Source: an uncultured Eubacterium sp. (GTDB taxonomy: Bacteria > Bacillota > Clostridia > Lachnospirales > Lachnospiraceae). Taken from it: a stretch of 51,543 nucleotides of DNA. Location of the stretch: contig CANDJC010000015.1 in the NCBI GenBank assembly GCA_947384955.1, positions 1-51,543 of the forward strand, read 5' to 3'. The notes beneath the pieces were generated by a model. The model saw nothing but the letters and a program-made list of their open reading frames with translations, was not told the DNA's origin and made no database searches. Both the position numbers and the translations under genes were made by a program. Below, piece by piece: positions 148-51,543 of this stretch (position 1 is the stretch's first letter; each line of letters starts with the position of its first letter).

Positions 148-258
148 TGGAACGGGAAGCTGGATGGGATGGATTTATCATACACGCTGCATGTGAAGCT
201 GGAATGAATCTGGGATGAATTTTTGTTGCAGGTGTTATGAAGGTTTTATTTAGGAGGT

Positions 259-6335: not shown

Positions 6336-8105
6336 TCAGGACCTGATTATTTCATAAATCTCTTTTGCCTTTTTCAGCGATTTCCCGGAAAGCAGCTTTC
6401 CTGCAGCAGATCGGATGCCGCTTTTCAGGCCATGCTTCCCCCGGCCCGGTTTCCTGCTGTTTCTGCGGTACATTTCCCGAATCGCCTGCGCATCTTTATC
6501 CATGTCTAAAAATATCTCTAAAAGCATGGGCTTTTCAGACGGTCTGGAAAAGGCCTCCAGAATCTTTTCCGTCTCTTTATGCCCGGAAGCCGTAAAATAA
6601 GAAAACCCGCATTCCAGCGCCCATCCTTTCGCACTAAGCGTGTTTCGGGCGCACACAAACTCTTCCATATCCGGATAATCCATTTTTATTTTAAACTCTT
6701 CTCCGCCGCCATTATTTAAAAGCACGATTCTGATATTGTTTTTCATTCCCCGCATCCCGGCCGCATTCATTCCATAGAAAAAACTCAGATCCCCGGTCAG
6801 CAGATAAGCCAGGGAATCCGCCGCAGCTGCTTCGCCCATAAATGCCGCCATGCATCCGTCAGTGCCAAGGGCCCCGAGATTGCAGAAATACTGTACCCTC
6901 TGATGCTCCAGATAATCAGAAAACTGCATCACCCTGGTACTGTTCAGCACTGCCGTATGAAGAAGCGCCCCTTCCGGCATGGTTTTGGAAAGAATGCGTG
7001 CAATGCTGAGGCTTGAAAAAACTTCTGCCTGAAAATCACACCGGTCATACAGTCCCTTCCATCTCCTGCAGTACAGATGTCTATTCTGCGGATTCTGCCT
7101 GCTGCCGCATGCAAGCAGCCTTTCAAAAAATTCCCCGGCCTCTCCTTCAAATATGCTGCTGCAGCACCAGAAAGGGTCTCTTACCTCGCCGCTTTCATGC
7201 ACCACCCAGCTTTCAACGGATTCCCTGTGTTTTCTTAAAAACTGTTTCAGCTGATAAGACGCGATATGGTTTCCAATCGAAATCACGATATCCGGCACAA
7301 ACTCCCTTCCCTCTCCCACTGCCCCTGTCTCTATCAGAGGATAAACTGCAGCCGCTCCCGGGCACCTGAGATTTGAAACTGTTTCCACGGCAAACATGCA
7401 GTCATACATTTCATAAAACCTGCCGCACACCGCCAGAAACTTCTCATCCGTCTTAAGCCCCTGCCCTGCAACAGCCATAATCTTTTTCCCTGACAGTTTT
7501 AAATGCAGGCTTTCATAATCCGCTTCCGGCACCTGATACCGCCTGATCACCCTCTGCTTTGGAATACAGCGTGTACTGCATGCAAGCGTCTGTGTAATCT
7601 GCACATTGATGTGCACAGGGCCGCTGCCGTGATGCGACAGCGCAAGAACCGCCTCATTCACCATCCGGTTACATGCCCACGCATCCGTTTCACTCAGTAC
7701 CGCCGGCAAAGTCACATGCTTCTTCACCACTCCGTCAAAGATATTTTCCTGATTTATCTTCTGCAGCTCCAGCTGTCCGAGCAGATAGGGAGCGCTGTCC
7801 GCGGTCACTGCCACAACCGGCAGATTCTGATAAAAAGCCTCTGTCATGCCGGGAAGATAATTCGATGCAGCAGTTCCTGCAGTACATACGCAGACAACCG
7901 GCTCCCCTGTAACCTGCGCAATCCCGGCTGCAAAGTAAACGGCATTTCTCTCATCGGCAGCGGAATAACATTCAAAAAAGCTGTCATGCTGAAAAGACTG
8001 AACAATCGGAGCACTGCTTCCTCCCGGCGATAAAACCGCTTTTCTTATCCGGCTTTCTTTTAAAACCCCTGTCAGAATCTGAATATTCTTTTCATCCGCA
8101 TACAT
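6336..8105 (-). CDS. MenD-like thiamine diphosphate enzyme
   Basis: ThDP-dependent enzyme of 589 residues, the usual length and domain order of MenD (SEPHCHC synthase): N-terminal pyrimidine-binding domain with SPGGSSAP and DERNAV (the activating Glu), middle domain, and C-terminal diphosphate-binding domain with GDLSFFYGMNAAG and NNGGGEEF. No other menaquinone gene is in the window, and the MenD substrate motif PGSRS is altered to PGGSS. I therefore infer a carboligase or decarboxylase working on a capsule precursor rather than menaquinone synthesis. The start at 8105 has GGGGGA just upstream. It overlaps the preceding FrhB gene by 14 bases, but only because a nine-G tract keeps that gene open. 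Confidence 0.78.
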   Translation of the reverse strand: MYADEKNIQILTGVLKESRIRKAVLSPGGSSAPIVQSFQHDSFFECYSAADERNAVYFAAGIAQVTGEPVVCVCTAGTAASNYLPGMTEAFYQNLPVVAVTADSAPYLLGQLELQKINQENIFDGVVKKHVTLPAVLSETDAWACNRMVNEAVLALSHHGSGPVHINVQITQTLACSTRCIPKQRVIRRYQVPEADYESLHLKLSGKKIMAVAGQGLKTDEKFLAVCGRFYEMYDCMFAVETVSNLRCPGAAAVYPLIETGAVGEGREFVPDIVISIGNHIASYQLKQFLRKHRESVESWVVHESGEVRDPFWCCSSIFEGEAGEFFERLLACGSRQNPQNRHLYCRRWKGLYDRCDFQAEVFSSLSIARILSKTMPEGALLHTAVLNSTRVMQFSDYLEHQRVQYFCNLGALGTDGCMAAFMGEAAAADSLAYLLTGDLSFFYGMNAAGMRGMKNNIRIVLLNNGGGEEFKIKMDYPDMEEFVCARNTLSAKGWALECGFSYFTASGHKETEKILEAFSRPSEKPMLLEIFLDMDKDAQAIREMYRRNSRKPGRGKHGLKSGIRSAAGKLLSGKSLKKAKEIYEIIRS

Positions 8106-9528
8106 TTCTGTTTCCCCCATGCTGCTGCAGACTGACAAAGGATACCGGTAAACCGCACACATCAATCCGGCAAGCTGTTTTAGAACAGAGTTCTAACCCC
8201 CCCCCTTGCAAAATCCGGCTTATGAATTTTAAAACCATGCGAATCATCCCCCTGCATTTCTGTATGTAATAAATAAACCTGTTTTTCCAGTATAAATAAA
8301 ATTCAGATTCCCCGTATACGTTTTTCATCGCCGCATCAAACCCCTTCTCCGGAATTATCCTCCAGAGCCTATCATATTCCTCCGGTTTTTCAGTCGGCTC
8401 CTTTAACGTATCATTGCCCCGGACTGCTTCCTGTCTGTCCCGCTCGAAGCACACCGTCCGGCTTTTTATTTTAAGAAATAATTCCCTGCCTTTCCGGGAA
8501 TTTACCAGCACCATATTCATTCCCTGTAACGGATTTTCTGCTGCGACTGCTTCCGCAATTCCCCAGAAATCCCCCAGCGTAATGTCGCCCTGCCTGTGCC
8601 CGCCTGCAAACGGACAGACATAACATGCTTCCTGAAATAAACAGTGGCGCATAAAATTTTTAAAATAGGCATCCTGATACTGAAACCCCTGATACAGAAT
8701 TCTCCAGTTTTCAGACCATGCCGTAAGCCTGCAGTCGAATCTTCCGCCGCGAAAAGTAACATCCCGGACATGCTTTCCCCTGCTGACATATGCTAAATGC
8801 TCGCGCAGACAGCGCGGGGAGCTTCCGCCGTGGCATAAAAGGTCCGCCGTTATCAGCTTCCCGGTCAATCCCGGATTTCTGGCATCCAGATATGCATATA
8901 CAGCGTTCACTTCACACGGAACACCGATAAAAAGTCCCTCCTGCCCGTCTGCGAGCCGTTTTTCCGTTTCCCTGTAAACGCCTGTTTTATTGCTGAGCAC
9001 ATATTTTGATTTTGAAATCCGCGGGATATCGGATACGCGGTCAGTCACGATGTGCCTTGCAATACCCGTACCGCTGTCAAAGATAACGCCTGCCACAAAG
9101 CCGCCGCTTCTTATCACTTCCTCAGACAGTTCCCCCGCCAGCCCGCCGGAAGCGCTGTGATAATGCCTCTTCTTATCCCTGCTCCATGCAGCATAACACC
9201 TGGATTTTTCGATATCTTCCAGACAGCTCTTTTCTCCGGCATCCGTCCCGTCTGACATTCCGCCCTGTTTCCTGTCATCCGTGACGTCCTCTGTTCTGCT
9301 TTGTTTCCTGCCGTCCGTCTTGTCTCTGAATCCGTCCTGTTTCCTGCCGGCATGACTGCTTTTTCGTGCCGGACAGACTCTCCGGCACAGGCCACATCCT
9401 GTACAGTGTGCTTCGTCTGTCACCGGACGCCAGAAGCCGCCTGTATCCTGCATGGAAACAGCGTCCTCCGGACAGATATCACAGCATGCTGCACAGCCAC
9501 AGCATTCTCTGTCGCTTACAATCCTCAT
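8092..9528 (-). CDS. Ferredoxin/FrhB-family protein of a polysaccharide cluster
   Basis: Protein of 478 residues. Two [4Fe-4S] ferredoxin motifs lie at the N-terminus (Cys9/12/15/19 and Cys42/45/48/52), followed by an F420-hydrogenase beta-subunit (FrhB)-like domain with SASGGLAGELSEEV and GVPCEVNAVYAYL and a cysteine group near the end (CYVCPFAGGHRQGDITLGDFWG). Such proteins are common in polysaccharide clusters, usually beside a pyruvyltransferase, which is absent here. Residues 62-97 are three 12-residue repeats beginning RKQ, a hydrophilic linker. Near the C-terminus nine G bases encode GGG. The 33 or so residues after it look unlike family protein and run into the MenD-like gene, so the natural end may be at the tract. 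It overlaps the cytidylyltransferase stop in an ATGA. Confidence 0.8.
   Translation of the reverse strand: MRIVSDRECCGCAACCDICPEDAVSMQDTGGFWRPVTDEAHCTGCGLCRRVCPARKSSHAGRKQDGFRDKTDGRKQSRTEDVTDDRKQGGMSDGTDAGEKSCLEDIEKSRCYAAWSRDKKRHYHSASGGLAGELSEEVIRSGGFVAGVIFDSGTGIARHIVTDRVSDIPRISKSKYVLSNKTGVYRETEKRLADGQEGLFIGVPCEVNAVYAYLDARNPGLTGKLITADLLCHGGSSPRCLREHLAYVSRGKHVRDVTFRGGRFDCRLTAWSENWRILYQGFQYQDAYFKNFMRHCLFQEACYVCPFAGGHRQGDITLGDFWGIAEAVAAENPLQGMNMVLVNSRKGRELFLKIKSRTVCFERDRQEAVRGNDTLKEPTEKPEEYDRLWRIIPEKGFDAAMKNVYGESEFYLYWKNRFIYYIQKCRGMIRMVLKFISRILQGGGLELCSKTACRIDVCGLPVSFVSLQQHGGNRNVCG
8180..8196 (-). repeat. Short perfect inverted repeat beside the G tract
   Basis: TTAGAA and TTCTAA arms around a 5-base centre. 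It directly abuts the nine-G tract at the 3' end of the FrhB gene. It is too AT-rich and short to be a good terminator. It could promote pausing or slippage at the tract. Confidence 0.4.
8197..8205 (-). repeat. Nine-G tract in the FrhB-like gene
   Basis: Nine C on the plus strand, nine G in the coding strand. With nine, the frame continues about 33 codons to 8092. With eight it meets TAG at once. With ten it stops after VRTLF. It is one of three such tracts in this operon. Confidence 0.85.
9238..9345 (-). repeat. 36-bp in-frame tandem repeat, three copies
   Basis: Three 36-base units encode RKQDGFRDKTDG, RKQSRTEDVTDD and RKQGGMSDGTDA. The core TGTTTCCTG (plus strand) recurs at 9266, 9302 and 9338, exactly 36 bases apart. 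Copy number could change without a frameshift and would alter the linker between the ferredoxin and FrhB domains. Confidence 0.8.
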
Positions 9529-9959
9529 ATTTCCCCGCCCTGAATTTTGTGAAGAACATCCGCTAAGAGCGTCGAAGATACGCCCTTCGTATATTCTAAA
9601 AATACAACATCCACTCCGGTATTTTCGAAATCCTTTCTGATTTTCTGATACATCACAGAATCCTTCCAGTCTGTTCCGTGAAACAGGACATCAAAATGCA
9701 GCCTGTTCCATGCCTCCATTTTATCCATGGATGTCTGAGGCACAGCTTCATCCACATATTTAATCGATTCCACTATCGCAATCCGCTCACGGAACGGTAT
9801 CACCGGATGCTTCTGTTTGTAAGCTTCTGCCAGCTCATCCGTACTGACGCCGACAATCAGCCTTTCGCACTGCTGCCTGGCTCTTTTTAAAAGATTCAGA
9901 TGCCCGATATGAAACATATCATAAACACCGGTTGTGTAGCCTGTTTTATACTTTTGCAT
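9525..9959 (-). CDS. Cytidylyltransferase-like protein (TagD family)
   Basis: Nucleotidyltransferase of 144 residues, the size of glycerol-3-phosphate cytidylyltransferase. The HIGH motif is HIGH at residues 17-20 within GVYDMFHIGHLNLL. The family C-terminal RTEGISTT segment appears as YTKGVSSTLL, a noticeable change. Members transfer CMP (or AMP) from the nucleotide to a phosphorylated polyol, giving for example CDP-glycerol. As it directly precedes the FrhB, MenD-like and SDR genes, I infer it activates the product or a precursor of that module for capsule decoration. The true substrate cannot be read from sequence. Confidence 0.85.
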   Translation of the reverse strand: MQKYKTGYTTGVYDMFHIGHLNLLKRARQQCERLIVGVSTDELAEAYKQKHPVIPFRERIAIVESIKYVDEAVPQTSMDKMEAWNRLHFDVLFHGTDWKDSVMYQKIRKDFENTGVDVVFLEYTKGVSSTLLADVLHKIQGGEI

Positions 9960-9991
9960 TGTTCCAGATTTTCCTTCCGCATTTTATTCTG

Positions 9992-11458
9992 TCAGTCACT
10001 GCCGCCTGACAGCAGCTGCAGTGCTTCTGCAAATTTTCTCCTCCCAAACAGCCCTGCTGTCAGAAGCATCAGGATAAAAAATCCCCGCCGCAGCAGCGTA
10101 TCGTGATACAGCACCGTCAGAAGCATCATAAAAATCAGCGCTGCCGCAGAAAGCCCGGACAGAAATTTCGTATCATAAATGCTGCTCTGCACCCCGTTTT
10201 TCCTGAGTATCTTTTTCATAAAATAATAATGTGCCAGTGTATAAATCACATAGCAGACAAGTGTCGTGTATGCCGCAGCACAAAAGCCAAATCGTTTCAG
10301 AAAGAGCGCATTCAGAATGATATTTGCCACAGCGCTTACTGCCGACGCAGCCGTGATATACTTATTTTCTTCATAATAAAACTCAACCGCTCCAAACAGC
10401 GGATACAGAAACATGAAAAAGGAAGCCACCGCAGCCGGCGGTATTACCCGGAGAGCTTCCTCATATTCTTCTGGAAGCATCCACCGGAACACATCAGGAA
10501 TGATGCAGATTAACAGAAAGGTAACCAGTGCAACAAAAACAACAGCCAGATTTGTAACTTTTGAAATTACTTCATATTTCTGTTCCTTTATCTTCCGGTA
10601 CAGCCACGGCGTAAAGGACGAGTGCACCGCCGATGTCAGAAGCCCCAGAAGCATTGCAAACGTATAGGCCGCGCTGTATATTCCTGCATCCGAGCTTCCG
10701 CATATACTGTTTATCATCAGTCTGTCCGACTGATTTAAAATCTGCATGGACAGATAATGCGGAATTAACACCGCGTTAAACCGGAACCCGTACGTCCAGT
10801 ACCTTCTGCTGTAATAAGCCTTTCCTTTTTTCTGATTTGCCGCAAAAAGCCAGACACCCAGCACTGCATTTATAAAAAGCGGGACAAGAATCTTCGCTTC
10901 TGCCCGGTACTCCGTATGCATCAGTACATAATAACTGGCAGCCGGATTTAATACAGCCGTCGTCACGGAACACGCGACCAGCAGCTTGTATTTATAAAAA
11001 TAACGCTGCACCGCAGACCACAGGGCAAACGGAATAAGAGCCAGAATTTCAATATACATGCAGACTGTCAGGAATTCTGACAGTCCAAGCAGCCTGCTGA
11101 AAGGCCCTAGAAAAAGAACTGTCACAAATAAAAACGCCAGTGTGAGCGTTGCCGCAAGCCCCTGAAAGGAGGAAACCACTTCGTAAATTTTTTCCGGATT
11201 CTTTACAATCGCTACATTAAACACGCCTCCCCAGATAGTGAGTGTGCAGAATATGGTAAAAATTCCAGTCCAGGACTGATACACGGAAATCAGCCCGTAC
11301 TCCTCCGTCGTAAGAATCCTGCTGAATACCGGAAGCGTCAGAAAGGAAATCCCTCTGACTAAAATATTCGAAACCGCAAACCAGACAGAAGCCTTCAGGG
11401 CATCTGAAACTGTCTGATACCGCTTTAAAATCTCTTTCATCTCCAGCTCATCCCGCAT
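9992..11458 (-). CDS. Wzx-type polysaccharide flippase
   Basis: Integral membrane protein of 488 residues with about 12-14 predicted helices, from the polysaccharide transporter branch of the MATE/MOP superfamily. The N-terminal pattern SVWFAVSNILVRGISFLTLP followed by FSRILTTEEYGL is characteristic. It would flip undecaprenyl-linked repeat units across the membrane. The start at 11458 overlaps the previous gene by 11 bases; an ATG at 11440 is an alternative. Both have weak binding sites. With the Wzy-like polymerase and the Wzz-like protein in the same operon, it defines a Wzx/Wzy-type capsule pathway. Confidence 0.88.
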   Translation of the reverse strand: MRDELEMKEILKRYQTVSDALKASVWFAVSNILVRGISFLTLPVFSRILTTEEYGLISVYQSWTGIFTIFCTLTIWGGVFNVAIVKNPEKIYEVVSSFQGLAATLTLAFLFVTVLFLGPFSRLLGLSEFLTVCMYIEILALIPFALWSAVQRYFYKYKLLVACSVTTAVLNPAASYYVLMHTEYRAEAKILVPLFINAVLGVWLFAANQKKGKAYYSRRYWTYGFRFNAVLIPHYLSMQILNQSDRLMINSICGSSDAGIYSAAYTFAMLLGLLTSAVHSSFTPWLYRKIKEQKYEVISKVTNLAVVFVALVTFLLICIIPDVFRWMLPEEYEEALRVIPPAAVASFFMFLYPLFGAVEFYYEENKYITAASAVSAVANIILNALFLKRFGFCAAAYTTLVCYVIYTLAHYYFMKKILRKNGVQSSIYDTKFLSGLSAAALIFMMLLTVLYHDTLLRRGFFILMLLTAGLFGRRKFAEALQLLSGGSD

Positions 11459-12965
11459 CCGTCATTCTGTTATAATTATCCACCGCTATCAGATATCCGC
11501 CCTGAAGCTCCCTGTCATCCGCAATCCGGGATATGAAATCCGAAATGCCAGGGACATCCTCAAAATGCGGAAACCCCAGCTCCGTCAGCGCACAGAAAAA
11601 ATTTCTCCTGCCCGTCATATTCACAGAAGCAAACGGGATTCCCGTCAGCGCACCGTCCACCATTGCAACCGAATGCTCACCAAAAACCAGATCCGCTTCT
11701 TCCAGATCCTTCTGCAGGCTGCCCCTGGAAAGCGACAGTTTAAAATCGCTGATATCATTATCCGGAATGTTGCCGGACAATACAAGATTGGGCAGTCCCA
11801 GGGAGGAAAAATACTGCGCATATCTCTGAATGGAACTGACTCCCTGGTGCAGCGGATGCACCCAGGCCGGATGACAGCGGTATAAAAAGCGGATTTCCGG
11901 GAATTTTTCTGCCAGATGCGCGACCGCAAGAGCCATCCGGTCCTCATCCGACCTGTTTTTCAGCGCCGTCCAGTCGCCGGAGCCGCTTGCCGCAATCAGT
12001 ACCGTGCGCACCTTTTTCGGAAACACAGGCTCCGGAAGATACAGTTTTCTGCGAAACGGCATGATGCTGACCGCAAGCCCCATATTCCGAAACATCTGCT
12101 CCCCCATCTCATCCCATGCATAATACTTTACATTTGACGGATGAAACGCCAGATAGCGGCTTGCATAATTCGGCGGAAGATACCCGTCCTGAATATATCT
12201 TACATCATACCTTCTGTCATCCGGCACAAGGCTGTTTCCCGCCTCATGCAGCGCCGTCAGGTACTGGCAGCGGGAAGCATCTTCAAACTCACCGTTTAAC
12301 AGCTTCCTGCATTCTTCATCCGACTGCTTCCACTCGATATCCATCCGGTAGCCGGTCCGTTCCAGCCTTCCCATAAAGACATATTTTTTCTGCCGAAACT
12401 GTCCGGTAAAAATTTTATCTCTGTACCGGCTGAAATTCTGCTCTTTTTCAGAATTTTTCCAGAATCCTTTTCTGATTCTCCGGTAAGCAGCCGCCATCCA
12501 TTCATTCTGATGCAGCGCTTTTTTCACCGTTTCCACAGTGCCCCTGCGGTAATAGTACCTGCCCCTCCGGTATCGGAATCCGTGCCGGAGCCATGTTTTC
12601 AGGCAGATTCCCAGGTCATCGGACAGAATATATCCTTTAAAGTCCCCGTACCGCTGTTTCAGCTTCTGGACAATCCGCTCATTTTTCAGCTCCTTTATTT
12701 TATCATAATATTCTTCCAGGTTTTTTACATTCTGCCTGAATGCCTGCACATCACACGCTTCCATCTGTGCATCTGTCAGAAAATCTGCAAATGTCAGATA
12801 CCGGACTGCTGCCGGCTTCTTAAAAAAGCGTTCTATTTTCCTGCGCTCAAAATCAAACAACAGCTGTGTTGTGACAAACAAAACCTTTTCAGATTTTATT
12901 TTATGCACGACAGGCTCTAAAGAATCTAGCTTCAGGTTCTGGCTGAATACAATTATGCTTATCAT
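11448..12965 (-). CDS. Unrecognised capsule protein, possible GT-B transferase
   Basis: Protein of 505 residues without a signal peptide or membrane helix. I do not recognise the family. The N-terminal part (about residues 1-170) is charged, with many Arg/Tyr (RYRRGRYYYRRG). The C-terminal part looks like the second half of a GT-B fold: TVLIAASGSGDWTAL, then RFLYRCHPAWVHPL, NLVLSGNIPDND, and ADLVFGEHSVAMVDGALTG, which resembles the donor-site helix of capsule and teichoic-acid-type transferases. I infer a glycosyl- or polyol-phosphate transferase. The transferase using the CDP-linked precursor from the adjacent module is not otherwise evident, so this is a candidate. ATGA overlap with the methyltransferase gene. 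Confidence 0.6.
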   Translation of the reverse strand: MISIIVFSQNLKLDSLEPVVHKIKSEKVLFVTTQLLFDFERRKIERFFKKPAAVRYLTFADFLTDAQMEACDVQAFRQNVKNLEEYYDKIKELKNERIVQKLKQRYGDFKGYILSDDLGICLKTWLRHGFRYRRGRYYYRRGTVETVKKALHQNEWMAAAYRRIRKGFWKNSEKEQNFSRYRDKIFTGQFRQKKYVFMGRLERTGYRMDIEWKQSDEECRKLLNGEFEDASRCQYLTALHEAGNSLVPDDRRYDVRYIQDGYLPPNYASRYLAFHPSNVKYYAWDEMGEQMFRNMGLAVSIMPFRRKLYLPEPVFPKKVRTVLIAASGSGDWTALKNRSDEDRMALAVAHLAEKFPEIRFLYRCHPAWVHPLHQGVSSIQRYAQYFSSLGLPNLVLSGNIPDNDISDFKLSLSRGSLQKDLEEADLVFGEHSVAMVDGALTGIPFASVNMTGRRNFFCALTELGFPHFEDVPGISDFISRIADDRELQGGYLIAVDNYNRMTDAG

Positions 12966-13804
12966 TGTTTTCCTCTCTCATTACATGCTTCCAGCAGAAA
13001 TCCTTTATCTGCTGTCTCCTGAAATCCCGCCCTTCTTTTCACCGGTATCGAACCGTCATAATCCCATTCAAAAATAATCCTGTATTTCATTTTCCGGATA
13101 AAATGCCTGAACCTTTTCAGCTCAAATAAATATACCGGATATACTGCCTGATAAATGGATTCCGGAACATGCTGAAGCATATACTGTTCCTTCCCTTTCC
13201 AAAAGGCGGTTTCATCGATTACTACATATCTGATTTTCTTATCCAGAAATTCCCTCAGCATATCATAAGGATCCGGAAGATAGCCTAAAACACTCGAAAG
13301 CAGCAGCACACTGCAGTCCTTCTGCTCCAGGCACTCATCAAGCGTATCATAAAAAGAAATCTCCGGAATACAGCGCCTTCCATACTCTGTAAAATGCTTC
13401 TGTTCAATCACGCTCCAGTCCAGATTCAGTCCCCGGGTTTCCTCCCGTATCCGGAAAAAGATGCTTCCAAGCGAACCTCCGAAATCTGCCACATGCAGCC
13501 GGCTTTCCTTTAAATGAACATAATAAAGCGAGCAGAGCAGTTCGTAGTTTATCTTTTTTTCCAGAAACGCCACCCCGTCCTGTTCATAGGCCGCCTTATT
13601 CTGCCGCACTGAATTCGTGGCCGCAATTACCTTCTTCAGAATCTCAGGCCGCTCATACCCCCCCCCGCAGGAATCTGCCGCTTTCTGCGCCTCGTCCCAG
13701 GACGGATACGAATCATAATAATACAGTACCTTCTCCAGGCTGAAAAACCTGTTTTTCAAATCCCTCACAGCAGGGGGAATCCATTTTTTTATATATTCAT
13801 GCAT
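12962..13804 (-). CDS. TIGR04325-family methyltransferase
   Basis: Protein of about 280 residues of the LIC12133/TIGR04325 methyltransferase family, common in surface polysaccharide loci. The family N-terminal pattern is visible: SWDEAQKAADS, a Gly-Tyr, EILKKV, then YEQDGVAF. The SAM-binding strand is LHVADFGGSLGS, and the later motif is VLGYLPDPYDML. The start at 13804 has AAGGA 8 bases upstream; the longer frame overlaps the preceding GT2. Family proteins have GY where this one has GGGY, because nine G bases lie at codons 47-49. With eight or ten G the product would end within about ten codons. It probably methylates a sugar of the repeat unit. Confidence 0.8.
   Translation of the reverse strand: MHEYIKKWIPPAVRDLKNRFFSLEKVLYYYDSYPSWDEAQKAADSCGGGYERPEILKKVIAATNSVRQNKAAYEQDGVAFLEKKINYELLCSLYYVHLKESRLHVADFGGSLGSIFFRIREETRGLNLDWSVIEQKHFTEYGRRCIPEISFYDTLDECLEQKDCSVLLLSSVLGYLPDPYDMLREFLDKKIRYVVIDETAFWKGKEQYMLQHVPESIYQAVYPVYLFELKRFRHFIRKMKYRIIFEWDYDGSIPVKRRAGFQETADKGFLLEACNERGKQ
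13658..13666 (-). repeat. Nine-G tract in the methyltransferase gene
   Basis: Nine G in the coding strand at codons 47-49. Loss of one G gives GGGMSGLRF then a stop. Gain of one gives GGGV then a stop. So only multiples of three around nine keep the enzyme intact, as expected of an on/off contingency tract. Confidence 0.85.
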
Positions 13805-13818
13805 GGTCTGATTCCTTT

Positions 13819-14751
13819 TCACACTCCCTTTAACAGACTGGCAGACATGCGCTTTGCAAGCCTGGCAGAATCTTTTAACAAAAGTCCCGGCACACCCATC
13901 CTTACCGCTGCCATCGAATAAAATACTCCGCACGCCTTTTTATATCCGCTCAGATCATACGTGCACGGCATCTTTTTTACGATATACTGATAATACAGCT
14001 CCTGGACAAATGCCCTGTTTTTCTTTTTGACATGCGCAAAATCACAGATCCTTAAATCGCCGTCCCTGACTAAATCCAGAAGAATCTGCGGGTAATCCAC
14101 AGCAAACGCGTAGAACAGGTTATACGTTCCTTTATGCCTGTCACCCGACGGCATTTCATCCAGGAGAATGCTGTCATCTATCATATAAGTCTTCGCATCT
14201 CTTCTGGAAAATAAAATATTTGTATGCGGATAAAGCTCATGATACCTTTCGCTGTCTGGAATCCTGTCAAAATCCTCTTTCCAGAACGCCATGCCCGTCG
14301 ACCAGGAAGAATAAATGCCCAGCTCCCTTACAAACGAAGAAAAATCTTTCACTGTCGTTACTTTCTTTTTTCTTTTCAGCACTCCGTTTGTAAAATAAAT
14401 CACAGGCTTTTCGCTTTCATATTTTTTCACAAACCGGAGCCAGTAACGCAGCGCCCCGTCTGTCAACCTGGTTCTGTGATTCAGAAATTTAATAAAAACC
14501 CCCCTGGCATGCCTGTAAGCATCCGGCTCGCTCATAAATTCATTCGTGCCGGACGGATAGTAATACAGATTTTCATGCCCTGCAGCATAGGCTTCCATTT
14601 CTTTTCGAAACTTCCGGTTATTTCCATTATCTGCAACAATCACTTCAAACCATTTCTGCTTTATATTCTGTGCATAGATGCTCTCCAGCACAGGAAATAC
14701 CCACTCCGAAATCCCGTTTGTGGGCATGCACAGAGAAATCAGCGGCCTCAT
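13819..14751 (-). CDS. Family 2 glycosyltransferase
   Basis: Protein of 310 residues beginning LISLCMPTNGISEWVFPVLES, the GT-A N-terminal strand of family 2. IVADNGNN gives the first Asp. The usual second acidic motif (DxD) is not obvious: the equivalent place reads FIKFLNHRTRL, so metal binding may differ. It belongs to the group of glycosyltransferases that also carry a C-terminal domain of unknown role. One-base overlap (TGATG) with the FdtA gene before it and 14 bases to the methyltransferase after it. It would add one sugar to the lipid-linked repeat unit; donor and linkage are unknown. Confidence 0.75.
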   Translation of the reverse strand: MRPLISLCMPTNGISEWVFPVLESIYAQNIKQKWFEVIVADNGNNRKFRKEMEAYAAGHENLYYYPSGTNEFMSEPDAYRHARGVFIKFLNHRTRLTDGALRYWLRFVKKYESEKPVIYFTNGVLKRKKKVTTVKDFSSFVRELGIYSSWSTGMAFWKEDFDRIPDSERYHELYPHTNILFSRRDAKTYMIDDSILLDEMPSGDRHKGTYNLFYAFAVDYPQILLDLVRDGDLRICDFAHVKKKNRAFVQELYYQYIVKKMPCTYDLSGYKKACGVFYSMAAVRMGVPGLLLKDSARLAKRMSASLLKGV

Positions 14752-15167
14752 CAGACACCCTCCCCCATCATTTTCAGATATGTACCGTAATCCCTGATAT
14801 ATTCCGTATCATCGTAATGCGTGCTTGCCAGAACAAGGAGCACGCTGTCCGGGGAAAAATCATACATATCCTTCCATATCATGCGCGGAATATAAATCCC
14901 CGTCATAGGCCTGTCCAGCGCCACGCTTATTTCTTCTTTTCCGTCTGTCATCCGCACCCTGCTGGTGCCGGCGACATTGACTAAGACAAATTCCGACCTG
15001 AGGTTCGCGTGCTGTCCGCGGATTACCTTCGAATCTGACTGGCAGATATAAAAGACCCGCCGGATTTCAAAAGGCACGGAGCGGCCTCCTTCGATTACAA
15101 CCAGCTTTCCCCGCTCGTCCCCGAGATCAGAAAATGTTAAAACCGGACATCTTTCTTTTAAGCTCAT
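14751..15167 (-). CDS. fdtA: FdtA/QdtA-type sugar 3,4-ketoisomerase
   Basis: Cupin of 138 residues matching the FdtA/QdtA/WxcM-like family: DERGKLVVIEGG, PFEIRRVFYI, RGQHAN (metal or catalytic His), GIYIPRMIWKDMYDFS and LVLASTHYDDTEYIRDY. Family members convert dTDP-4-keto-6-deoxyglucose to the 3-keto sugar, which an aminotransferase then aminates. It precedes no rml gene here, so the dTDP-sugar must come from elsewhere in the genome. It overlaps the DegT aminotransferase by 4 bases. FdtA versus QdtA (galacto versus gluco product) cannot be decided by eye. Confidence 0.85.
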   Translation of the reverse strand: MSLKERCPVLTFSDLGDERGKLVVIEGGRSVPFEIRRVFYICQSDSKVIRGQHANLRSEFVLVNVAGTSRVRMTDGKEEISVALDRPMTGIYIPRMIWKDMYDFSPDSVLLVLASTHYDDTEYIRDYGTYLKMMGEGV

Positions 15168-16339
15168 AATACCTTCCTTTTATTTTCCAAATGCCTGGCG
15201 TGCATCCGCTGCCCTGTCTGCCGGCTGCTTCTGAACGCATTGAGTGCATCCGCCACCCTCTCCGTTTCGCACGGATACATGCCGTTATAAATAGGAATGC
15301 TGAGAACCTCATCCGCATATCTTTCCGCTATCGGATAATCCCCCTTATGAAACCCGAGATACCGGTAGGCCTTTGAAAGATGCGGCGGCACCGGATAATG
15401 GATCAGCGTCTGTATGCCTTTTTCGTTTAAATATGCCGCAAGCTCATCCCTGTGCCCCGGCACATGGAGCACAAACTGATGCCAGCTGCTGTCTGCGCCG
15501 GGACGTATTTCAGGAAGCTGCAGGAGAGGATTGTTAATATCCCTCAGGTAGCGCTGCGCAATCCCGGCCCGCTCCCGGTTCAGCTCATCCAGATGCTTCA
15601 GCTTCACCCGCAGAAGGCCTGCCTGCAGCTCGTCCAGGCGGCTGTTTACGCCCACAGCTTCATGCTGATACCGGCTGCCCGCGCCATAATTGCGGTATAT
15701 CCTGAATTTCTGAATGAGCTCCTCATCATCCGTGATTACTGCCCCCGCATCTCCAAAAGCCCCGCAGCCTTTCGTCGGATAAAAACTGAAACACCCGATA
15801 TCCCCGAATGTCCCGGCCTTTTTTCCCATCCAGTGATTCCCGTGGCTCTGCGCACAGTCCTCCACCACCTTTAAATGATGCCTTGCAGCAATATCCATAA
15901 TCTTTGTCATGTCACAGCACTGCCCGTATAAGTGAACTGCCAGGACAGCTTTTGTATGCGGGGTTACTGCGTCTTCTATTTTATCTGCGTCGATATTGTC
16001 ATACTCATCCGGCTCCACAAATACCGGCCGCGCCCCGTTCATCGTAATCCCCATCACACAGGCAATGTAGGCATTGGCACACACAATAACCTCGTCTCCC
16101 TCCCGAATGCCCAGCAGCTGAAAGCTCAGCCGCAGCGCATCCAGCCCGCAGGCCAGCCCGGCGCAGTATTTCGCGCCCGTATACTCCGCCCACTCCTTTT
16201 CGAACTGCTCCCCCTCTCTGCCAAGCACATACCAGCCGGAGCGGAGCACCTGAACAGCCTTTTTCTCATATTCCCGTGCATAAAGCGCATACTGCCTGCC
16301 AAGATTATTTGTCATGATGACCTGACTGTTTTCCTGCAT
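15164..16339 (-). CDS. DegT/DnrJ/EryC1/StrS sugar aminotransferase (FdtB-like)
   Basis: PLP-dependent aminotransferase of 391 residues. The PLP lysine is in GCFSFYPTKGCGAFGDAGAV. Also present are ACGLDALRLS, AVHLYGQCCDM, EDCAQSHGNHWMGKKAGTFG and YRNYGAGSRYQHEAVGVNSR, all standard for this family. The start at 16339 follows AAAGGAGG with a 9-base spacer, although this lies inside the end of the acetyltransferase gene (35-base overlap). Next to FdtA, it most likely aminates dTDP-3-keto-6-deoxyhexose to a 3-amino sugar (Fuc3N or Qui3N). Confidence 0.88.
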   Translation of the reverse strand: MQENSQVIMTNNLGRQYALYAREYEKKAVQVLRSGWYVLGREGEQFEKEWAEYTGAKYCAGLACGLDALRLSFQLLGIREGDEVIVCANAYIACVMGITMNGARPVFVEPDEYDNIDADKIEDAVTPHTKAVLAVHLYGQCCDMTKIMDIAARHHLKVVEDCAQSHGNHWMGKKAGTFGDIGCFSFYPTKGCGAFGDAGAVITDDEELIQKFRIYRNYGAGSRYQHEAVGVNSRLDELQAGLLRVKLKHLDELNRERAGIAQRYLRDINNPLLQLPEIRPGADSSWHQFVLHVPGHRDELAAYLNEKGIQTLIHYPVPPHLSKAYRYLGFHKGDYPIAERYADEVLSIPIYNGMYPCETERVADALNAFRSSRQTGQRMHARHLENKRKVL

Positions 16340-17042
16340 CCTTTTTATCCTCCTTTCTGAAAACCGGGCCTGTCTCAGGACTGATGCCCGGCAGAAAGTC
16401 CATTGCACAGACGTCTTCTGCCTTTGTGACCGGCTGATACAGCTGTCTGATATGGCCCCGGACCAGTTCCGGGGTCAGCTTCGAATAATCAATCTTCATC
16501 AGTTCCTGAATGACTTCTCCGCTGAACCGGTACTTTATCACCTCTGCCGGAACCCCGCCTGCAACTGCATAGGGCGGTATATCCCTGCTCACAACTGCCC
16601 CTGCTGCGATAACGGCTCCCTGGCCGACGGTCACCCCGGATAATACTGTGCATCCGTGGCCAATCCATACATCATCCTTGATTATAATGTCTCCTTTTGC
16701 AAACGCTTCCGGTGTCTTAGAGCCAAGCATTTTTACCTTAAAAGGGTAGGTTGAAATATGACTGGTGTAATGCTCGGTATCAAGAAGGAAGGTTACGCCT
16801 GAGGCTATGGATACAAAGTTTCCTATTTTCAGTTTTGCCTTGTCATTATATGTAATTACATTCAGAACTCCATAGCTGCCTCTTCCAGCTGTTACCAGTC
16901 TGTGTAAAAATGTATTTCCCGGAACTGTATCATTGTGGGGATTGTTTTTTATCCAGATGCGCTTTTGCATCATTCGTTTACACCGCTCTAAAATCTTTAT
17001 ACATAAAAAGTTATTCCAATATGCTCTATATAGCGGTTTCAT
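16305..17042 (-). CDS. Hexapeptide-repeat acetyltransferase (XAT/CatB type)
   Basis: Left-handed beta-helix acyltransferase of 245 residues. The signature LLDTEHYTSHISTYPF belongs to the CatB/Vat branch, followed by hexapeptide repeats IIIKDDVWIGHGCTVLSG and VTVGQGAVIAAGAVV. It lies directly before the aminotransferase and FdtA genes, so it is the best candidate for N-acetylating the 3-amino-3,6-dideoxyhexose (the FdtC role). The XAT-type signature is also found in O-acetyltransferases, so capsule O-acetylation is the main alternative. The ATG at 17042 has GGAG 6 bases upstream; a TTG two codons earlier is unlikely. Confidence 0.82.
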   Translation of the reverse strand: MKPLYRAYWNNFLCIKILERCKRMMQKRIWIKNNPHNDTVPGNTFLHRLVTAGRGSYGVLNVITYNDKAKLKIGNFVSIASGVTFLLDTEHYTSHISTYPFKVKMLGSKTPEAFAKGDIIIKDDVWIGHGCTVLSGVTVGQGAVIAAGAVVSRDIPPYAVAGGVPAEVIKYRFSGEVIQELMKIDYSKLTPELVRGHIRQLYQPVTKAEDVCAMDFLPGISPETGPVFRKEDKKDAGKQSGHHDK

Positions 17043-17088
17043 ATACAACTCCTTTCATACCTGAAGTATACTTCAATTTGCGGACACA

Positions 17089-18033
17089 CTATTTCTGAAA
17101 CTTTTTCCTTAACCGAGAGATTTTCATATAAATATACGGTATCATAACAGCTGTAAGCATTCTTATCCGCTGTAAATACGGCATTGTCAAAATGGCTGAT
17201 TTACTGTCCTTAATTGCCGCTACACTTGCATTCACATATCTAAGATTCAATTCCTGTTTCATTCCCATTACATCCATTGTCCAGACAGCCCTTTTCAGTA
17301 TTCCTCTGCGAATCGCACACTGCGTCTGATAATCTGCTTTATATTCCATTCCTAATTCCAGACAGTTCTGCGTCATAACTAAAGCATCAAAATACTGCTT
17401 CGCCCCTGATAAATTACAGGAATTGTATCTGGAATACATTTGATGATAATAATTATCTGAGACATAGCGAATCTTTTCTGCTTTCGAAACTGCCTGAAAC
17501 AAAAACCACATATCTTCTCCCATGCCAATCCCTCTTGGAAAAGATATCTGCCTGATAAGCGATTTTCTATATATCTTGCCCCACACATTTACTCCAAAAT
17601 TATCATCATCAAACATCTGTTTCCATGCCGCATCTCTGTCTAACTCCAATCGAAATCTGCAGGAGGCTTTAGCATTCGAACTGACGACAATCTGTGTCTG
17701 TTCATCGAATAACGGCATCAGCCTGGCTGCAAAATCAGAAGACAGAACGTCATCTGCATCCACAAATGTAATGTATTCCCCTGAGGAAGCACGGATACCG
17801 CAGTTTCTTGCTTCCGATACTCCCGAATTCATTTGGTGAATGACCCTGATATTTGAAAAACGGCCTGCATATTCGTCACATATCTCTCCGCATTTATCAG
17901 GAGAGCCATCGTCAATCATGATAATTTCAAGATTTTTATAATCCTGTTTTATTACTGATTTTATGCAGCGTCTGACTGTATCTTCTTTACAATATACTGG
18001 TATAATAACGCTTAATTTTCCTAAAGATTCCAT
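17089..18033 (-). CDS. Family 2 glycosyltransferase
   Basis: Protein of 314 residues with the textbook GT2 start LSVIIPVYCKEDTVRRCI, IDDGSPDKC, NSGVSEARN and the DxD-type motif FVDADDVL. A later FGVNVWGKIYRKSLI and GMGEDMWF supply the acceptor-side Asp-containing motif. It would be a cytoplasmic, membrane-associated enzyme that extends the repeat unit. It overlaps the polymerase gene before it by 13 bases. Donor sugar unknown. Confidence 0.92.
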   Translation of the reverse strand: MESLGKLSVIIPVYCKEDTVRRCIKSVIKQDYKNLEIIMIDDGSPDKCGEICDEYAGRFSNIRVIHQMNSGVSEARNCGIRASSGEYITFVDADDVLSSDFAARLMPLFDEQTQIVVSSNAKASCRFRLELDRDAAWKQMFDDDNFGVNVWGKIYRKSLIRQISFPRGIGMGEDMWFLFQAVSKAEKIRYVSDNYYHQMYSRYNSCNLSGAKQYFDALVMTQNCLELGMEYKADYQTQCAIRRGILKRAVWTMDVMGMKQELNLRYVNASVAAIKDSKSAILTMPYLQRIRMLTAVMIPYIYMKISRLRKKFQK

Positions 18034-19313
18034 GCCGTCTCACCTGCCAGTGCCGAAGTATTTTGACAAATATTTTCAAGGCCATGCTGCTTTGTATGAA
18101 AAATAAAGAATAAATCCGTTAAAAAAAATGCGGAAAATAGCGGATAGCTTGTGCAGTTCATAATGACAAAATACAGAAACACCGCTTTTCCCAGATAGTT
18201 TTTTCTGCTTATCCTGTGATATAAAATACCGCAGGCTGCCAGCAAAATACCCAGTCCTGCCATACCAAAATAAACAATCACCAGCGCATAACCGGGAATC
18301 CAGCCTATTTCCCGGACAACATCGTCATACGCAAAGCCTCTGCCAAACAAAACATAAAGAAAATCACCATCAAAAATATATCCGATATTTCCGAACCTTA
18401 AGTTTAAGGAAGAATGATCTATAAAAACTCTTGTTACAAAAATACGAAACATAGGCGTATTCATCAGGCAAAGCAGTGCTGCTGCTATAAGCGGGAAATA
18501 TTTTCCTGTTTTCTGCAGCACATTATCTGCTTTTAAAATACTTCTCCAAAAATACAGCACCAGAAAAATAACGCAGCCAAGAATTCCCGTTGTTGAACCT
18601 GTAATAAAACAGGTTGCGGTTATAAATAAAATTTTTACAAACTTCTTCCTTTTATATTTTCTGATACTCTTTCCTTCCGATAACAGCCCCGCTTGATTTC
18701 CTGACATATCGTGAAACAGCAGCAATATGAAATAGAGCAGAATATACTCACAAAATATGGAAGGTTCTGAAAATATAGAATGCGGCCTGTAATAGCTTTT
18801 ATGATTCAGATACTGATATTCAAAGTCCAAATCGCTTCGGTGCTCAAAAAAAGGCAGAAAAGACGGCAGAATTGTATTTCTGACATATAGAAAAAACACT
18901 TGCATCCAGCAGTATATACTGGTAAAAACAGCAGTAACTTCCAAGGCTTTAAATGCAGCAGAAAAGCTGCCACACCTGCTCAGTCCAAAAACAGCTATAA
19001 ACAGCATAAAAAACTGTCTCAGATAATCCGTCACTGCACCGGATAGCTCTGTATGAAATAAAAAACTAAAAAATATAACCACTGCATAAGGAAGAAATAG
19101 ATTTCCATAGCCGGAATAGCTGATTCTGGGATTTCTCACTAAAGAAACTGCTGTCATTACTGCCATAAACACAATCGCTATATCCGACAAAGCCCCGGGA
19201 ATACGTTTTACAGAATATGCATTGAGTAAAGGTAACAGGCAGATTAAAACAGAAAACATGTTATTTACAAAATGATTTCTGCACTTTTTTTCTGTATCAA
19301 AAAAATACCGCAT
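18021..19313 (-). CDS. Wzy-type O-antigen/capsule polymerase
   Basis: Membrane protein of 430 residues with about 10-12 helices and a large loop in the second half (around FEHRSDLDFEYQYLNHKSYY, and later GNIGYIFDGDFLYVLFGRG), as in Wzy polymerases. These have very low sequence conservation, so the call rests on topology, the single copy in the operon and the presence of Wzx. The start at 19313 has GGAG 6 bases upstream; an ATG 4 codons earlier is in frame but less well placed. It would join lipid-linked repeat units at the outer face of the membrane. Confidence 0.78.
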   Translation of the reverse strand: MRYFFDTEKKCRNHFVNNMFSVLICLLPLLNAYSVKRIPGALSDIAIVFMAVMTAVSLVRNPRISYSGYGNLFLPYAVVIFFSFLFHTELSGAVTDYLRQFFMLFIAVFGLSRCGSFSAAFKALEVTAVFTSIYCWMQVFFLYVRNTILPSFLPFFEHRSDLDFEYQYLNHKSYYRPHSIFSEPSIFCEYILLYFILLLFHDMSGNQAGLLSEGKSIRKYKRKKFVKILFITATCFITGSTTGILGCVIFLVLYFWRSILKADNVLQKTGKYFPLIAAALLCLMNTPMFRIFVTRVFIDHSSLNLRFGNIGYIFDGDFLYVLFGRGFAYDDVVREIGWIPGYALVIVYFGMAGLGILLAACGILYHRISRKNYLGKAVFLYFVIMNCTSYPLFSAFFLTDLFFIFHTKQHGLENICQNTSALAGETAWNL

Positions 19314-19329
19314 AAAAATCTCCATATGC

Positions 19330-20418
19330 CTAAGACATCATTACATTTGACAATGCTTCAAGATAACTGAAGCCTGTTTCTTCATCCGGTTCGAGATAAG
19401 CGCCTTCGCTCCATTCGTTCCAGGCAGTGATAAAAAGAAACTCGTTCTTTCGTTTTTTACTTTTAGACAGCTGAATCGATAAATAATGTTCAAACAGTTC
19501 CGGGGAAGCGCCAGTGTATACACTTCCTTTATGTCCCCATCTTGCTGTCGTGTCCCAGCCGCTAAACGCTCCTAAAAACGTTTTGACACTGCCTTTATAT
19601 TCTTTTTTTAGTATACTGCTCCATACCTTTTTACAGCTGAACTTCGTTACATGATTATGAATTCTTAAATTTAATACATTGTATTTGAAATGATACCAAA
19701 ATCCATAATCCAGTTTATATCCTTCTCTTCTTGTCCCAAACGTCGGCTGATACTCAAACTGCGCATCTAAACCCAGTTTTTCAGCTGCTCCTATATCTGC
19801 CTGCGACTTTAAAGTTGATATATAGTAAATTCCGTCCCATCCTGCTTTTCGTGCAAGCTGTTTCCAGCAGGCAGACATGCGGTTCCAGCAGCTGATATCT
19901 GCTGCATCATACAAAACAAGTACCGGTTTATTATCAATCTTTATATATCTTTTATCTTTAAAAAAACGGTTTAAATACTCAAAATGACTTTTCCAGTCTT
20001 CTACGCCGCCGTATGTCTGTCTGATAAGAATTTTCTCACCTTTTTTACCCGGTGCCTTTGTCCATGTATGATTCGCCCAGGAAAAACAGAATCTGATATT
20101 GATATCTTTGCTTTTCAGCAAAATCTCCGGCGGCTTTTCCATCATCTGAATGCCTTCAAACCAGTAATGATAGATACAGAATCCATACACATGATACTTG
20201 CGTGCCATCTCAGCCTGCCGCCTGATTTCTTTTTCATCCAGCAGGCAGTAATAATTTTTCTTATACGGCACCCGCGGCTGTCTGTGTCCTTTAAATAGAG
20301 GCCTGGCCCTTTTTAAGCTGGTCCATTCGGTAAATCCCTTCTCCCACCACAAATTATTCTGTTCAAACTCATAAAACTGTGGGAGATACATTGCAAGAAT
20401 TTTTGTCTGCATTATCAT
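19330..20418 (-). CDS. WbsX-like glycan protein (GH99-like domain)
   Basis: Protein of 362 residues of the WbsX/glyco_hydro_99-like family found in O-antigen and capsule loci. Typical elements are LAMYLPQFYEF, NLWWEKGFTEWTSLKRARP, GFCIYHYWFEG, FCFSWANHTWTK, FITAWNEWSEGAYLEP. The family is thought to act in polysaccharide assembly, as transferase or processing enzyme, but its reaction is not settled. It overlaps the DUF6625-like gene by 4 bases if the ATG at 20418 is used. The ATG at 20412 has a better-spaced GGTGG and is an alternative start. Confidence 0.82.
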   Translation of the reverse strand: MIMQTKILAMYLPQFYEFEQNNLWWEKGFTEWTSLKRARPLFKGHRQPRVPYKKNYYCLLDEKEIRRQAEMARKYHVYGFCIYHYWFEGIQMMEKPPEILLKSKDINIRFCFSWANHTWTKAPGKKGEKILIRQTYGGVEDWKSHFEYLNRFFKDKRYIKIDNKPVLVLYDAADISCWNRMSACWKQLARKAGWDGIYYISTLKSQADIGAAEKLGLDAQFEYQPTFGTRREGYKLDYGFWYHFKYNVLNLRIHNHVTKFSCKKVWSSILKKEYKGSVKTFLGAFSGWDTTARWGHKGSVYTGASPELFEHYLSIQLSKSKKRKNEFLFITAWNEWSEGAYLEPDEETGFSYLEALSNVMMS

Positions 20419-21380
20419 ATACCACCATTCATACGGCGATGAATTCTGTATCGAATTGCGCCATTTTTAACATTTGTAACAATCTCTTTCATTCGTTCAA
20501 TTCTGCGTCTTATATAAAGCACACCTTCTGGAGCATTTTGGACTATAAATTCCGCATTCATTGCATCTGTACCATTTATAAAACAATTCGGAACAATCAT
20601 ATAATGATTTATATTCTTAATATTTTCAGCTTTCATATGCCGCTTCTGCAAATGTATATATGCCCATTCATCTTTCTTCACATTACCCCCCCCCACCATA
20701 TAAAATCTGTACACTGCTCCATTATGATATAAATATATTTGTTTTGCCTTACCGCAGGTACCCTGTACCGCATGAAAGGAAAATGAATTGCAGTCTATAT
20801 CTGCATACACTACCTGATTCCATTCTCTGATGCCGCGCTTTTTTGTAATCACATGCCACATTTCATTTTCATCAAAATGGCAGCAATAATTTGTCTTGTA
20901 TACAAACCTGTAATCTGCCGGCATGCCTCTCATTCTCGTTTTATATAACTTTCTGCATGCAGAATTATTTCTCATCAGTACAAGATGTCCCCGGAACAGG
21001 ATTTTATCATATGTGTCCAAAACTTCATCCGTAATAAACTGCTTCAAATGTCCAAAAATCAGGTCCGTATCACAAAATCCCCAGAATTCATATCCGGTAA
21101 TGTATTCTTTGAATATATCCCCGTAAGCAATTTTATAATCACATAATTTATATGGCTTTTTTAATGTAATTTTAAAATTAAAATGCTGCTGAATATAGGA
21201 CCTCATTTTATCAAAATCCGTATATTTCACAGTTACATTTTCCGGGTAATCAAAATATCTGCGGTCATCTGTAAATATCAGCCAGTCAAAATCCGGGTTA
21301 TGTCTGCATGAATTTAAAAACAAATGAAAGTAGCTGTTAAACTTTCCAAAATAAGGTATGATTATCATACATCGATTCAT
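20415..21380 (-). CDS. DUF6625-like putative glycosyltransferase
   Basis: Protein of 321 residues starting CMIIIPYFGKFNSYFHLFLN, with FDWLIFTDD and FWGFCDTDLIFGHL (a DxD-like pair, DTD). This layout matches DUF6625-type proteins of polysaccharide loci, which look like GT-A glycosyltransferases. The start at 21380 has GAGGG 11 bases upstream; the longer frame lies inside the fucosyltransferase gene. Codons 230-232 are GGG, encoded within a nine-G tract. Losing or gaining one G gives a stop within three codons and would remove the last 90 or so residues. Confidence 0.7.
   Translation of the reverse strand: MNRCMIIIPYFGKFNSYFHLFLNSCRHNPDFDWLIFTDDRRYFDYPENVTVKYTDFDKMRSYIQQHFNFKITLKKPYKLCDYKIAYGDIFKEYITGYEFWGFCDTDLIFGHLKQFITDEVLDTYDKILFRGHLVLMRNNSACRKLYKTRMRGMPADYRFVYKTNYCCHFDENEMWHVITKKRGIREWNQVVYADIDCNSFSFHAVQGTCGKAKQIYLYHNGAVYRFYMVGGGNVKKDEWAYIHLQKRHMKAENIKNINHYMIVPNCFINGTDAMNAEFIVQNAPEGVLYIRRRIERMKEIVTNVKNGAIRYRIHRRMNGGI
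20686..20694 (-). repeat. Nine-G tract in the DUF6625-like gene
   Basis: Nine G in the coding strand at codons 229-232. With eight G the frame reads GGV-M then stop. With ten it reads GGG then TAA. The same length and the same in-frame state are found in the other two tracts of this operon. Confidence 0.85.
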
Positions 21381-21393
21381 CTTTAACCGTCCC

Positions 21394-22296
21394 TCAGCAT
21401 TGAATCCTGTACCATTCCTTTTGCATAATGTCACAGGGAATGTCCTGTGCGTACCATCTGTCTGGCGATATGACAATCTTTTCTGGATTTCTGGAAAGGT
21501 ACTGCGCCCACCAGCTGAAACTGCTGTTGGAAATTATAAAATTTTTGCACTGGCACATAAGAGCCAGTGATATGCTGTCTTTTGATTTGCCGGAATCATA
21601 AACAGCCGGATACCGGAACTGAAACATTTTTCTGGCAGTCTCTATTTCATCTGAGAACACAAAGAATCTGCAGTCCGGTTTCATTTTTACCATCATATCC
21701 ATTGCTTTCATATAATACTCTTTGGTACATACCTGATGTACTGTATTCCCAAGATAATCTCCAAGTCTTATGGTCAGACAGACAGATTCACAGTTTTTTA
21801 TCTGTTCCAGAAATATCTGTTCTTCTTTCGTAAACTTATCTTTTGGTACAATTTCATTTAAAAGTTTATCTTTAACCGGCTCTAAATAAGCGGCTGACTG
21901 AAAATATCCATCACAGAATATTTCCCTGGGCAGATTCAAAGGCAGTTCGTAATAACCATCCATCAAAAGAAACAGACCCTTTTTCAAGTTTGACTGCATT
22001 TTTTTAATCTGTCTTTCATGTATCTGCCGGTTTGTCTGGTATTTACACTGTATTCTGTCCATAAAAAATGCCGTCTTTGCAGGCAGAGGCATTTTTAATA
22101 CTCTTTCTTCTTTGCTGGTAAAGGAAACAGACGGATGCAGGACAAACCGGTCCAGATGACTGTGCCAGACTGTATCTTTTTCTTCTGTCCTGTCATACAG
22201 TAATGCTTTCATATGATATTTATCACATACCATTCTGGCAAACCCATAAATAAACAGCTGATTTCCCAGCCGTCCTTTTATCCGCATTTTTACCAT
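21394..22296 (-). CDS. GT11 alpha-1,2-fucosyltransferase-like protein
   Basis: Protein of 300 residues of glycosyltransferase family 11. The donor motif LTIRLGDYLGN (family H/SxRxGDY), the N-terminal GRLGNQLFIYGFARM and the C-terminal FIISNSSFSWWAQYLSRNP are the three family hallmarks. Members transfer fucose from GDP-fucose, mostly in alpha-1,2 linkage, which in gut bacteria can mimic host glycans. No GDP-fucose synthesis genes are in the window. The ATG at 22296 is preceded by AGAGGA with a 7-base spacer. Confidence 0.9.
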   Translation of the reverse strand: MVKMRIKGRLGNQLFIYGFARMVCDKYHMKALLYDRTEEKDTVWHSHLDRFVLHPSVSFTSKEERVLKMPLPAKTAFFMDRIQCKYQTNRQIHERQIKKMQSNLKKGLFLLMDGYYELPLNLPREIFCDGYFQSAAYLEPVKDKLLNEIVPKDKFTKEEQIFLEQIKNCESVCLTIRLGDYLGNTVHQVCTKEYYMKAMDMMVKMKPDCRFFVFSDEIETARKMFQFRYPAVYDSGKSKDSISLALMCQCKNFIISNSSFSWWAQYLSRNPEKIVISPDRWYAQDIPCDIMQKEWYRIQC

Positions 22297-51528: not shown

Positions 51529-51543
51529 CTATTCGCCCTGGCT

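Follow-up and report, generated by a model that had tools for sequence, protein, structure and literature searches.

Nine-guanine tracts in surface-glycan genes of an uncultured Eubacterium as candidate phase-variation switches

Why should three genes on one contig of an uncultured Eubacterium sp. each carry a run of exactly nine G in the coding strand? The stretch of DNA analysed here, referred to as the window, is 51,543 nucleotides long and corresponds to contig C15 of a genome of 5.06 Mb in 271 contigs (our G000, below also the “own” genome). A preliminary description, made from the letters of the window, proposed that the tracts are contingency loci that switch sugar modifications. Slippage switches of this kind are textbook matter for host-adapted Gram-negatives. 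Our answer is that in-gene tracts of nine G (G9) are very probably slipped-strand phase-variation contingency loci for surface glycans. The proposal draws its support from the link between tract length and reading frame, from broken genes that retain two parts of one protein, and from the same gene families recurring across species.

Three tracts and their genes in the window

The features are collected in Table 1. All three tracts read as C9 on the plus strand and lie as G9 in three minus-strand ORFs, at the positions and on the coding strand first described; a count of runs in the window also confirms that the sole other G/C run longer than six is a G8 near its end. Extrapolation from run lengths gives a chance expectation of at most ~0.05 runs of at least nine in the window, and three are observed. 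The methyltransferase of the window matches no Pfam family.

Early stops after one-base shifts had been claimed for two of the genes. At 7, 8, 10 or 11 G a stop indeed follows the tract after 1-7 codons in the methyltransferase gene and after 0-2 codons in the DUF6625 gene. The claim extends to the FrhB-like gene (1-5 codons at the same four lengths), though here just the C-terminal tail, the last ~34 of 478 residues, is altered or removed. The effect of a shift in this gene may be mild, or may fall on the ORF downstream: in its readable form the FrhB-like gene extends to 8092, within the MenD-like ORF, and because of this overlap its tract might act via translational coupling. At their current lengths the FrhB-like, methyltransferase and DUF6625 genes are all three predicted to be in the readable state. 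The presence of three tracts in one operon, which the preliminary description had stressed, is real but not peculiar to this operon, as much of the genus has dozens of tracts per genome.

Table 1. Coordinates of window features, of the dispersed repeat, and of broken genes with both parts of a protein
Feature	Tract	Position	Strand	Remarks
FrhB-like gene	G9	8092..9528	-	Fe-S + FrhB_FdhB_C, Pfam 3.5e-16; readable at current tract length
G9 tract of FrhB-like gene	G9	8197..8205	-	codons 442-444 of 478, close to C-terminus
Methyltransferase gene	G9	12962..13933	-	NCBIfam TIGR04325, 164 bits vs cut-off 80; readable at current length
G9 tract of methyltransferase gene	G9	13658..13666	-	codons 90-92 of 323; TAT next
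DUF6625 gene	G9	20415..21476	-	Pfam 6.3e-92; readable at current tract length
G9 tract of DUF6625 gene	G9	20686..20694	-	starts at codon 261 of 353; TAA next, in other frame
MenD-like enzyme		6336..8165		same-strand neighbour; best NCBIfam match, under its cut-off
Sugar-aminotransferase-like protein				same-strand neighbour; NCBIfam matches under their cut-offs
Flippase (Polysacc_synt), WbsX, GT11 and GT4 glycosyltransferases				same-strand neighbours; Pfam
G8 tract	G8	51399..51406	+	intergenic class adjoining GCGGACGCCGGGAGAGGGG repeat; outside in-gene set
~270-bp palindromic element		window 51399-51543; L069:3073-3345, 4142-4419; L138; L157; L101		
Acyl_transf_3, broken	G11	profile 2-181 before tract, 207-320 after		
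Acyl_transf_3, broken	G8	profile 2-94 before tract, 125-321 after		
Acyl_transf_3, broken	G10	profile 4-200 before tract, 220-322 after		
Glycos_transf_2, broken	G8	profile 1-45 before tract, 56-166 after		
LicD, broken	G10	profile 1-103 before tract, 129-227 after		
FrhB-like gene of G005, broken	G10	pieces match residues 7-188 and 250-380		matched to own C71 relative (readable, G9)

Tract length and reading frame in the genome and genus

The own genome holds 35 exact G8, 73 exact G9 and 43 runs of at least ten, about 150 runs of at least eight altogether, part of which sit at contig ends and are suspect. Runs of up to 21 G occur no more than about 150 bases from contig ends (for example C10:82-100, C91:48-131 and C253:3781-3820), and these look like sequencing or assembly artefacts. 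By run-length extrapolation, 0.4-5.2 runs of at least nine are expected by chance per 5.06 Mb, as against 73 exact G9 alone, the chance rates being derived from 522 kb that were picked for containing tracts and are a biased sample. A repeat tract so far beyond chance is a mark of simple-sequence-repeat contingency loci. In those 522 kb the G/C runs number 267 of five, 20 of six, 7 of seven, 9 of eight, 69 of nine, 9 of ten, 9 of eleven and 7 longer, a bimodal spectrum with its mode at nine; A/T runs dwindle at eight (76 of eight, 4 longer). A chance tail of run lengths is ruled out by the dip at 7-8 and the peak at nine. The mode at nine is also found in G008 (13 G8, 79 G9, 18 longer), G003 (34, 58 and 35) and G002 (20, 43 and 20). 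Among 61 genomes searched, exact G9 occurs in 13 of the 13 from the genus, with 1 to 79 each (own 73; the others 7, 43, 58, 12, 35, 17, 28, 79, 1, 22, 12 and 1, so that two have one only), and in 23 of 48 outside it, with at most 10.

Tracts were classed by a dicodon score together with stop-to-stop frames. From the own genome 84 tracts were classed, all of them 400 bases or more from the nearest contig end; only nine of the 35 own G8 and 25 of the 43 own runs of at least ten were read. The 84 tracts comprise 35 that are mid-gene and in frame, 11 mid-gene with a broken frame, 17 at gene edges and 21 intergenic. The 80 tracts of G008, which cover 60 of its 79 G9, gave 28, 8, 25 and 19 in the same order. 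G003 and G002 contributed 19 tracts each, chiefly of lengths other than nine because their 40 loci had been fetched for other lengths.

When the mid-gene tracts are pooled, leaving aside edge and intergenic ones, 65 G9 are in frame and 8 broken, against 3 in frame and 22 broken at lengths 8, 10 and 11 (Fisher p 2e-12). That tract length decides readability is another mark of contingency loci; the three exceptions, mid-gene tracts of 8 or 10 that are in frame, count against the switching reading. Of the four tracts of length 12, three were classed as broken, and the remaining one is an in-frame tract at a gene edge. Two G10 of G005 lie beyond the pooled count, one of them broken and the other (L204:3027) in frame, as does a G9 of G001 (L093) that was called broken. 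A score retrained on all loci gave 34 in frame and 6 broken for the own G9, compared with 35 and 5 before.

Control runs were called broken in 20/288 cases for A7-8, 6/192 for T7-8, 28/336 for G5-7 and 4/25 for C runs of five and longer. These calls reflect gene junctions and show the false rate. Because it is low, the broken share at 8, 10 and 11 G far exceeds it. The share of broken G9 (8/73) is near this rate, and most of these eight may be gene junctions.

The proposed mechanism is simple. Slipped-strand mispairing at replication would add or remove one G; with nine G a gene is predicted to read through (as in 65/73 mid-gene tracts), and with 8, 10 or 11 its frame would be broken (22/25). 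We infer within-strain switching from many genes and species. A genome might hold up to dozens of switches, mainly in genes making or decorating surface glycans, as judged by families and uncorrected for a background rate. By analogy with known systems, cells would then vary randomly in their glycans, a bet-hedge against phages, antibodies and changing niches.

Broken genes, families, relatives and rival explanations

In six broken genes the flanks of the tract, searched as separate pieces, match two parts of one protein (Table 1); a seventh has a B12-binding domain upstream of the tract and a radical SAM domain downstream. Among the relatives, 16 genes were scanned, 14 with both flanks of the tract and two with the upstream flank only. 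The remaining relatives' genes gave a one-sided match, none, or different whole domains per side (GHMP kinase and epimerase in L121, Big_2 and fn3 in L142), and outcomes of these three sorts are no proof of a single broken gene. For the 11 broken own genes, both pieces were scanned for eight and the downstream piece only for three; one piece of a pair was often without a match.

The families involved point in one direction. Apart from the three of the window, 40 own tract proteins were scanned (33 mid-gene in frame, 7 edge), of which 31 had a Pfam match and nine had none. By our own sorting, with generic methyltransferases entered as glycan-type, 26 of the 31 are of glycan type, a raw share with no background rate behind it; for the mid-gene proteins alone the figure is 21 of 25, sorted in the same way and equally uncorrected. 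With the same reservation, a concentration in genes for surface structures is a further contingency-locus mark. The glycan-type set comprises 11 methyltransferases (four FkbM), six glycosyltransferases (that of L008 below the Pfam cut-off), three acyltransferases, and one each of NKWYS, GDP-mannose dehydratase, FrhB, Asn synthase, radical SAM/SPASM and CDP-alcohol transferase. The five non-glycan proteins are regulators, a sensor kinase or solute-binding proteins. Two CAT_RBD/PRD antiterminator genes of the own genome carry G9, at C48:21123 (L032:2627-3466) and C87:14756 (L042:3067-3507), so sugar regulation may switch too.

The in-frame G9 are spread across the three codon phases (18, 27 and 20 of 65), and their flanks are biased. 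T directly follows the tract in 31/34 own and 49/65 pooled cases, as against 452/2397 control runs of G4-6, and the next base is A in 29/34 own tracts; C directly precedes it in 37/65 cases versus 788/2397. The T bias is weaker in G008 (T 15, A 11, C 2 of 28). TA does not serve merely for placing stops, because it is also present in the phase that gives Tyr. Sites of the form HG9TA were counted against their reversed control in 294 genomes drawn from the order, with no member of the genus among them besides the own one; 101 of the 294 were matched. The own genome gave 37 against 3, and the others, summed by hand, 248 against about 71. Genomes from other families of the order, G275, G209, G075, G128 and G317 among them, hold 8-12 G9TA sites each, mostly well above the reversed control, which suggests smaller tract sets of the same kind beyond the genus.

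A plain account of the nine-G rule would be that tracts settle at nine, so that a gene is retained only if nine G leave it readable. The further idea of a genome-wide glycan lottery, in which some process favours exactly G9 plus TA in any codon phase and would thereby give the genes a shared readable length and slippage rate, we regard as unlikely.

MutS_I scores above its cut-off in 12 of the 13 genus genomes, the own one included. This counts against the switching reading. A missing MutS is a mark of the Campylobacter-type poly-G set that these 12 genomes do not share; to our knowledge, Campylobacter lacks MutS. Loss of MutS as the cause of the tracts is unsupported by the same count.

Comparison with relatives bears on where tracts arise. 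Among seven relatives of the DUF6625 protein, one from G008 (36% identical) has G9 in the same loop, one from G001 has it further on, and five carry no tract. In the FrhB-like family the tract position, in aligned residues, is 442 in the window gene, 277 in own C71, 248 in G008 and between 245 and 284 in G005; five further genes, with alignments of about 280 residues or longer, have no tract. The relatives with tracts are ~25-37% identical and do not represent one orthologous gene; those of own C71 and G008 can be read at G9, and that of G005 is broken at G10. The methyltransferase tract is absent from 3 of 3 relatives, all in G006, the closest of which has GDSY in place of GGGY. MBOAT proteins that are 36% identical share the loop in which their G9 lies, but not the codon phase of the tract. 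In a pair of loci with 77% identical DNA (own C83 and L144 of G008), the own G9 lies in a solute-binding gene, and in L144 the adjacent gene bears a tract, a G8, of which own C83 has no counterpart. That a family may have its tracts at one shared place or at several would be better explained by selection for switching than by inheritance of a single motif. A fixed three-residue insertion was not seen: the length difference between relatives at the tract ranges from 0 to 3 residues.

The same comparison weakens the view that the tracts are fixed Gly-rich coding stretches kept for protein reasons, with the odd lengths due to sequencing or assembly errors. At the tract position relatives usually have different residues or a shorter loop, and the remaining Gly codons would serve equally, even if some tracts do coincide with natural glycine motifs such as the PGG of methyltransferases (which we take to be their glycine motif). 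Mid-gene G9 are mostly in frame, as this view would have it, and all data are consensus assemblies of metagenome type, whose errors could account for some odd tract lengths. However, tracts other than nine are common (35 G8 and 43 of at least ten, partly at contig ends or in repeats) and mostly gene-breaking, whereas A/T runs of 7-8 were called broken in just 3-7%. We consider fixed stretches quite improbable.

Still less probable, in our estimate very improbable, is a mutational bias of the lineage that lengthens G runs with no benefit from switching. Intergenic tracts of 8-12 and more do exist, and the directional TA flank hints at a mutational component. Such a bias does not explain why tracts sit mainly in glycan-type genes (26/31 family-matched, a share uncorrected for background) or recur independently within the same families, nor why 0 of 84 own tracts lies in frame mid-gene as poly-C in a gene of the opposite strand.

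The intergenic tracts lead to a dispersed palindromic element of ~270 bp with inverted arms of 71 and 159 nt, many copies of which are edged by a G tract. It is present in G000, G002, G003 and G008, and several G000 contigs terminate in it. An Rfam search of 63,280 bases (three repeat-bearing loci plus the window) gave no gathering-level match. At L069:3310-3992 a tandem array with a 38-bp unit lies between two copies. That the tracts are remnants or edges of this repeat is scarcely credible: many intergenic tracts, the G8 at 51399 included, do edge it, but it adjoins none of the three window G9 tracts, whose flanks refute such an origin, and the flanks of in-gene tracts have no longer sequence in common.

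Meaning and comparison with known systems

If slipped-strand switching at these tracts is real, cells of one strain would differ randomly in their surface sugars, with consequences for phage resistance, antibody coating and the tracking of gut strains. It would also call for caution in annotation: in genomes of this sort, an apparently broken or missing gene may be a switch that happened to be sequenced in its unreadable state. With a fixed length of nine and a TA flank, both the rate of slippage and the origin of the tracts become open to testing.

Among open-licence papers we found no report of poly-G phase variation in Lachnospiraceae or Clostridiales, which is weak evidence of novelty. A survey of homopolymeric tracts in the coding genes of prokaryotes had Clostridia among its sampled groups; the part of it available to us stresses poly(A) and poly(T) and names no poly-G set in Clostridia (PMC2831843). 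Phase variation as such is described within Clostridia for Clostridioides difficile, but there, in the part of the source consulted, it works through invertible promoters, by DNA inversion and not by tract length (PMC11868660).

Closer in mechanism are the pilus genes of Bifidobacterium, for which the portion of the source at hand describes a G-tract slippage switch, with replication slippage measured by deep sequencing (PMC9187656). The likeness lies in Gram-positive gut bacteria and in a G tract between two parts of an ORF; unlike those sortase pilus clusters (PMC9187656), the candidates here, seen in assemblies, are dozens of glycan-type genes per genome.

The poly-G loci of Campylobacter jejuni, as far as the excerpt consulted describes them, are similar in having tracts of 8-9 G within surface-glycan genes, in that a one-base change breaks the frame, and in the many glycan genes involved (PMC6437147). 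In cgtB of that species, according to the same excerpt, G8 is readable and G9 broken (PMC6437147), whereas the readable length here is nearly always nine. The present tracts differ from those of Campylobacter also in their Clostridia-type host with MutS, and in the TA that tends to follow them.
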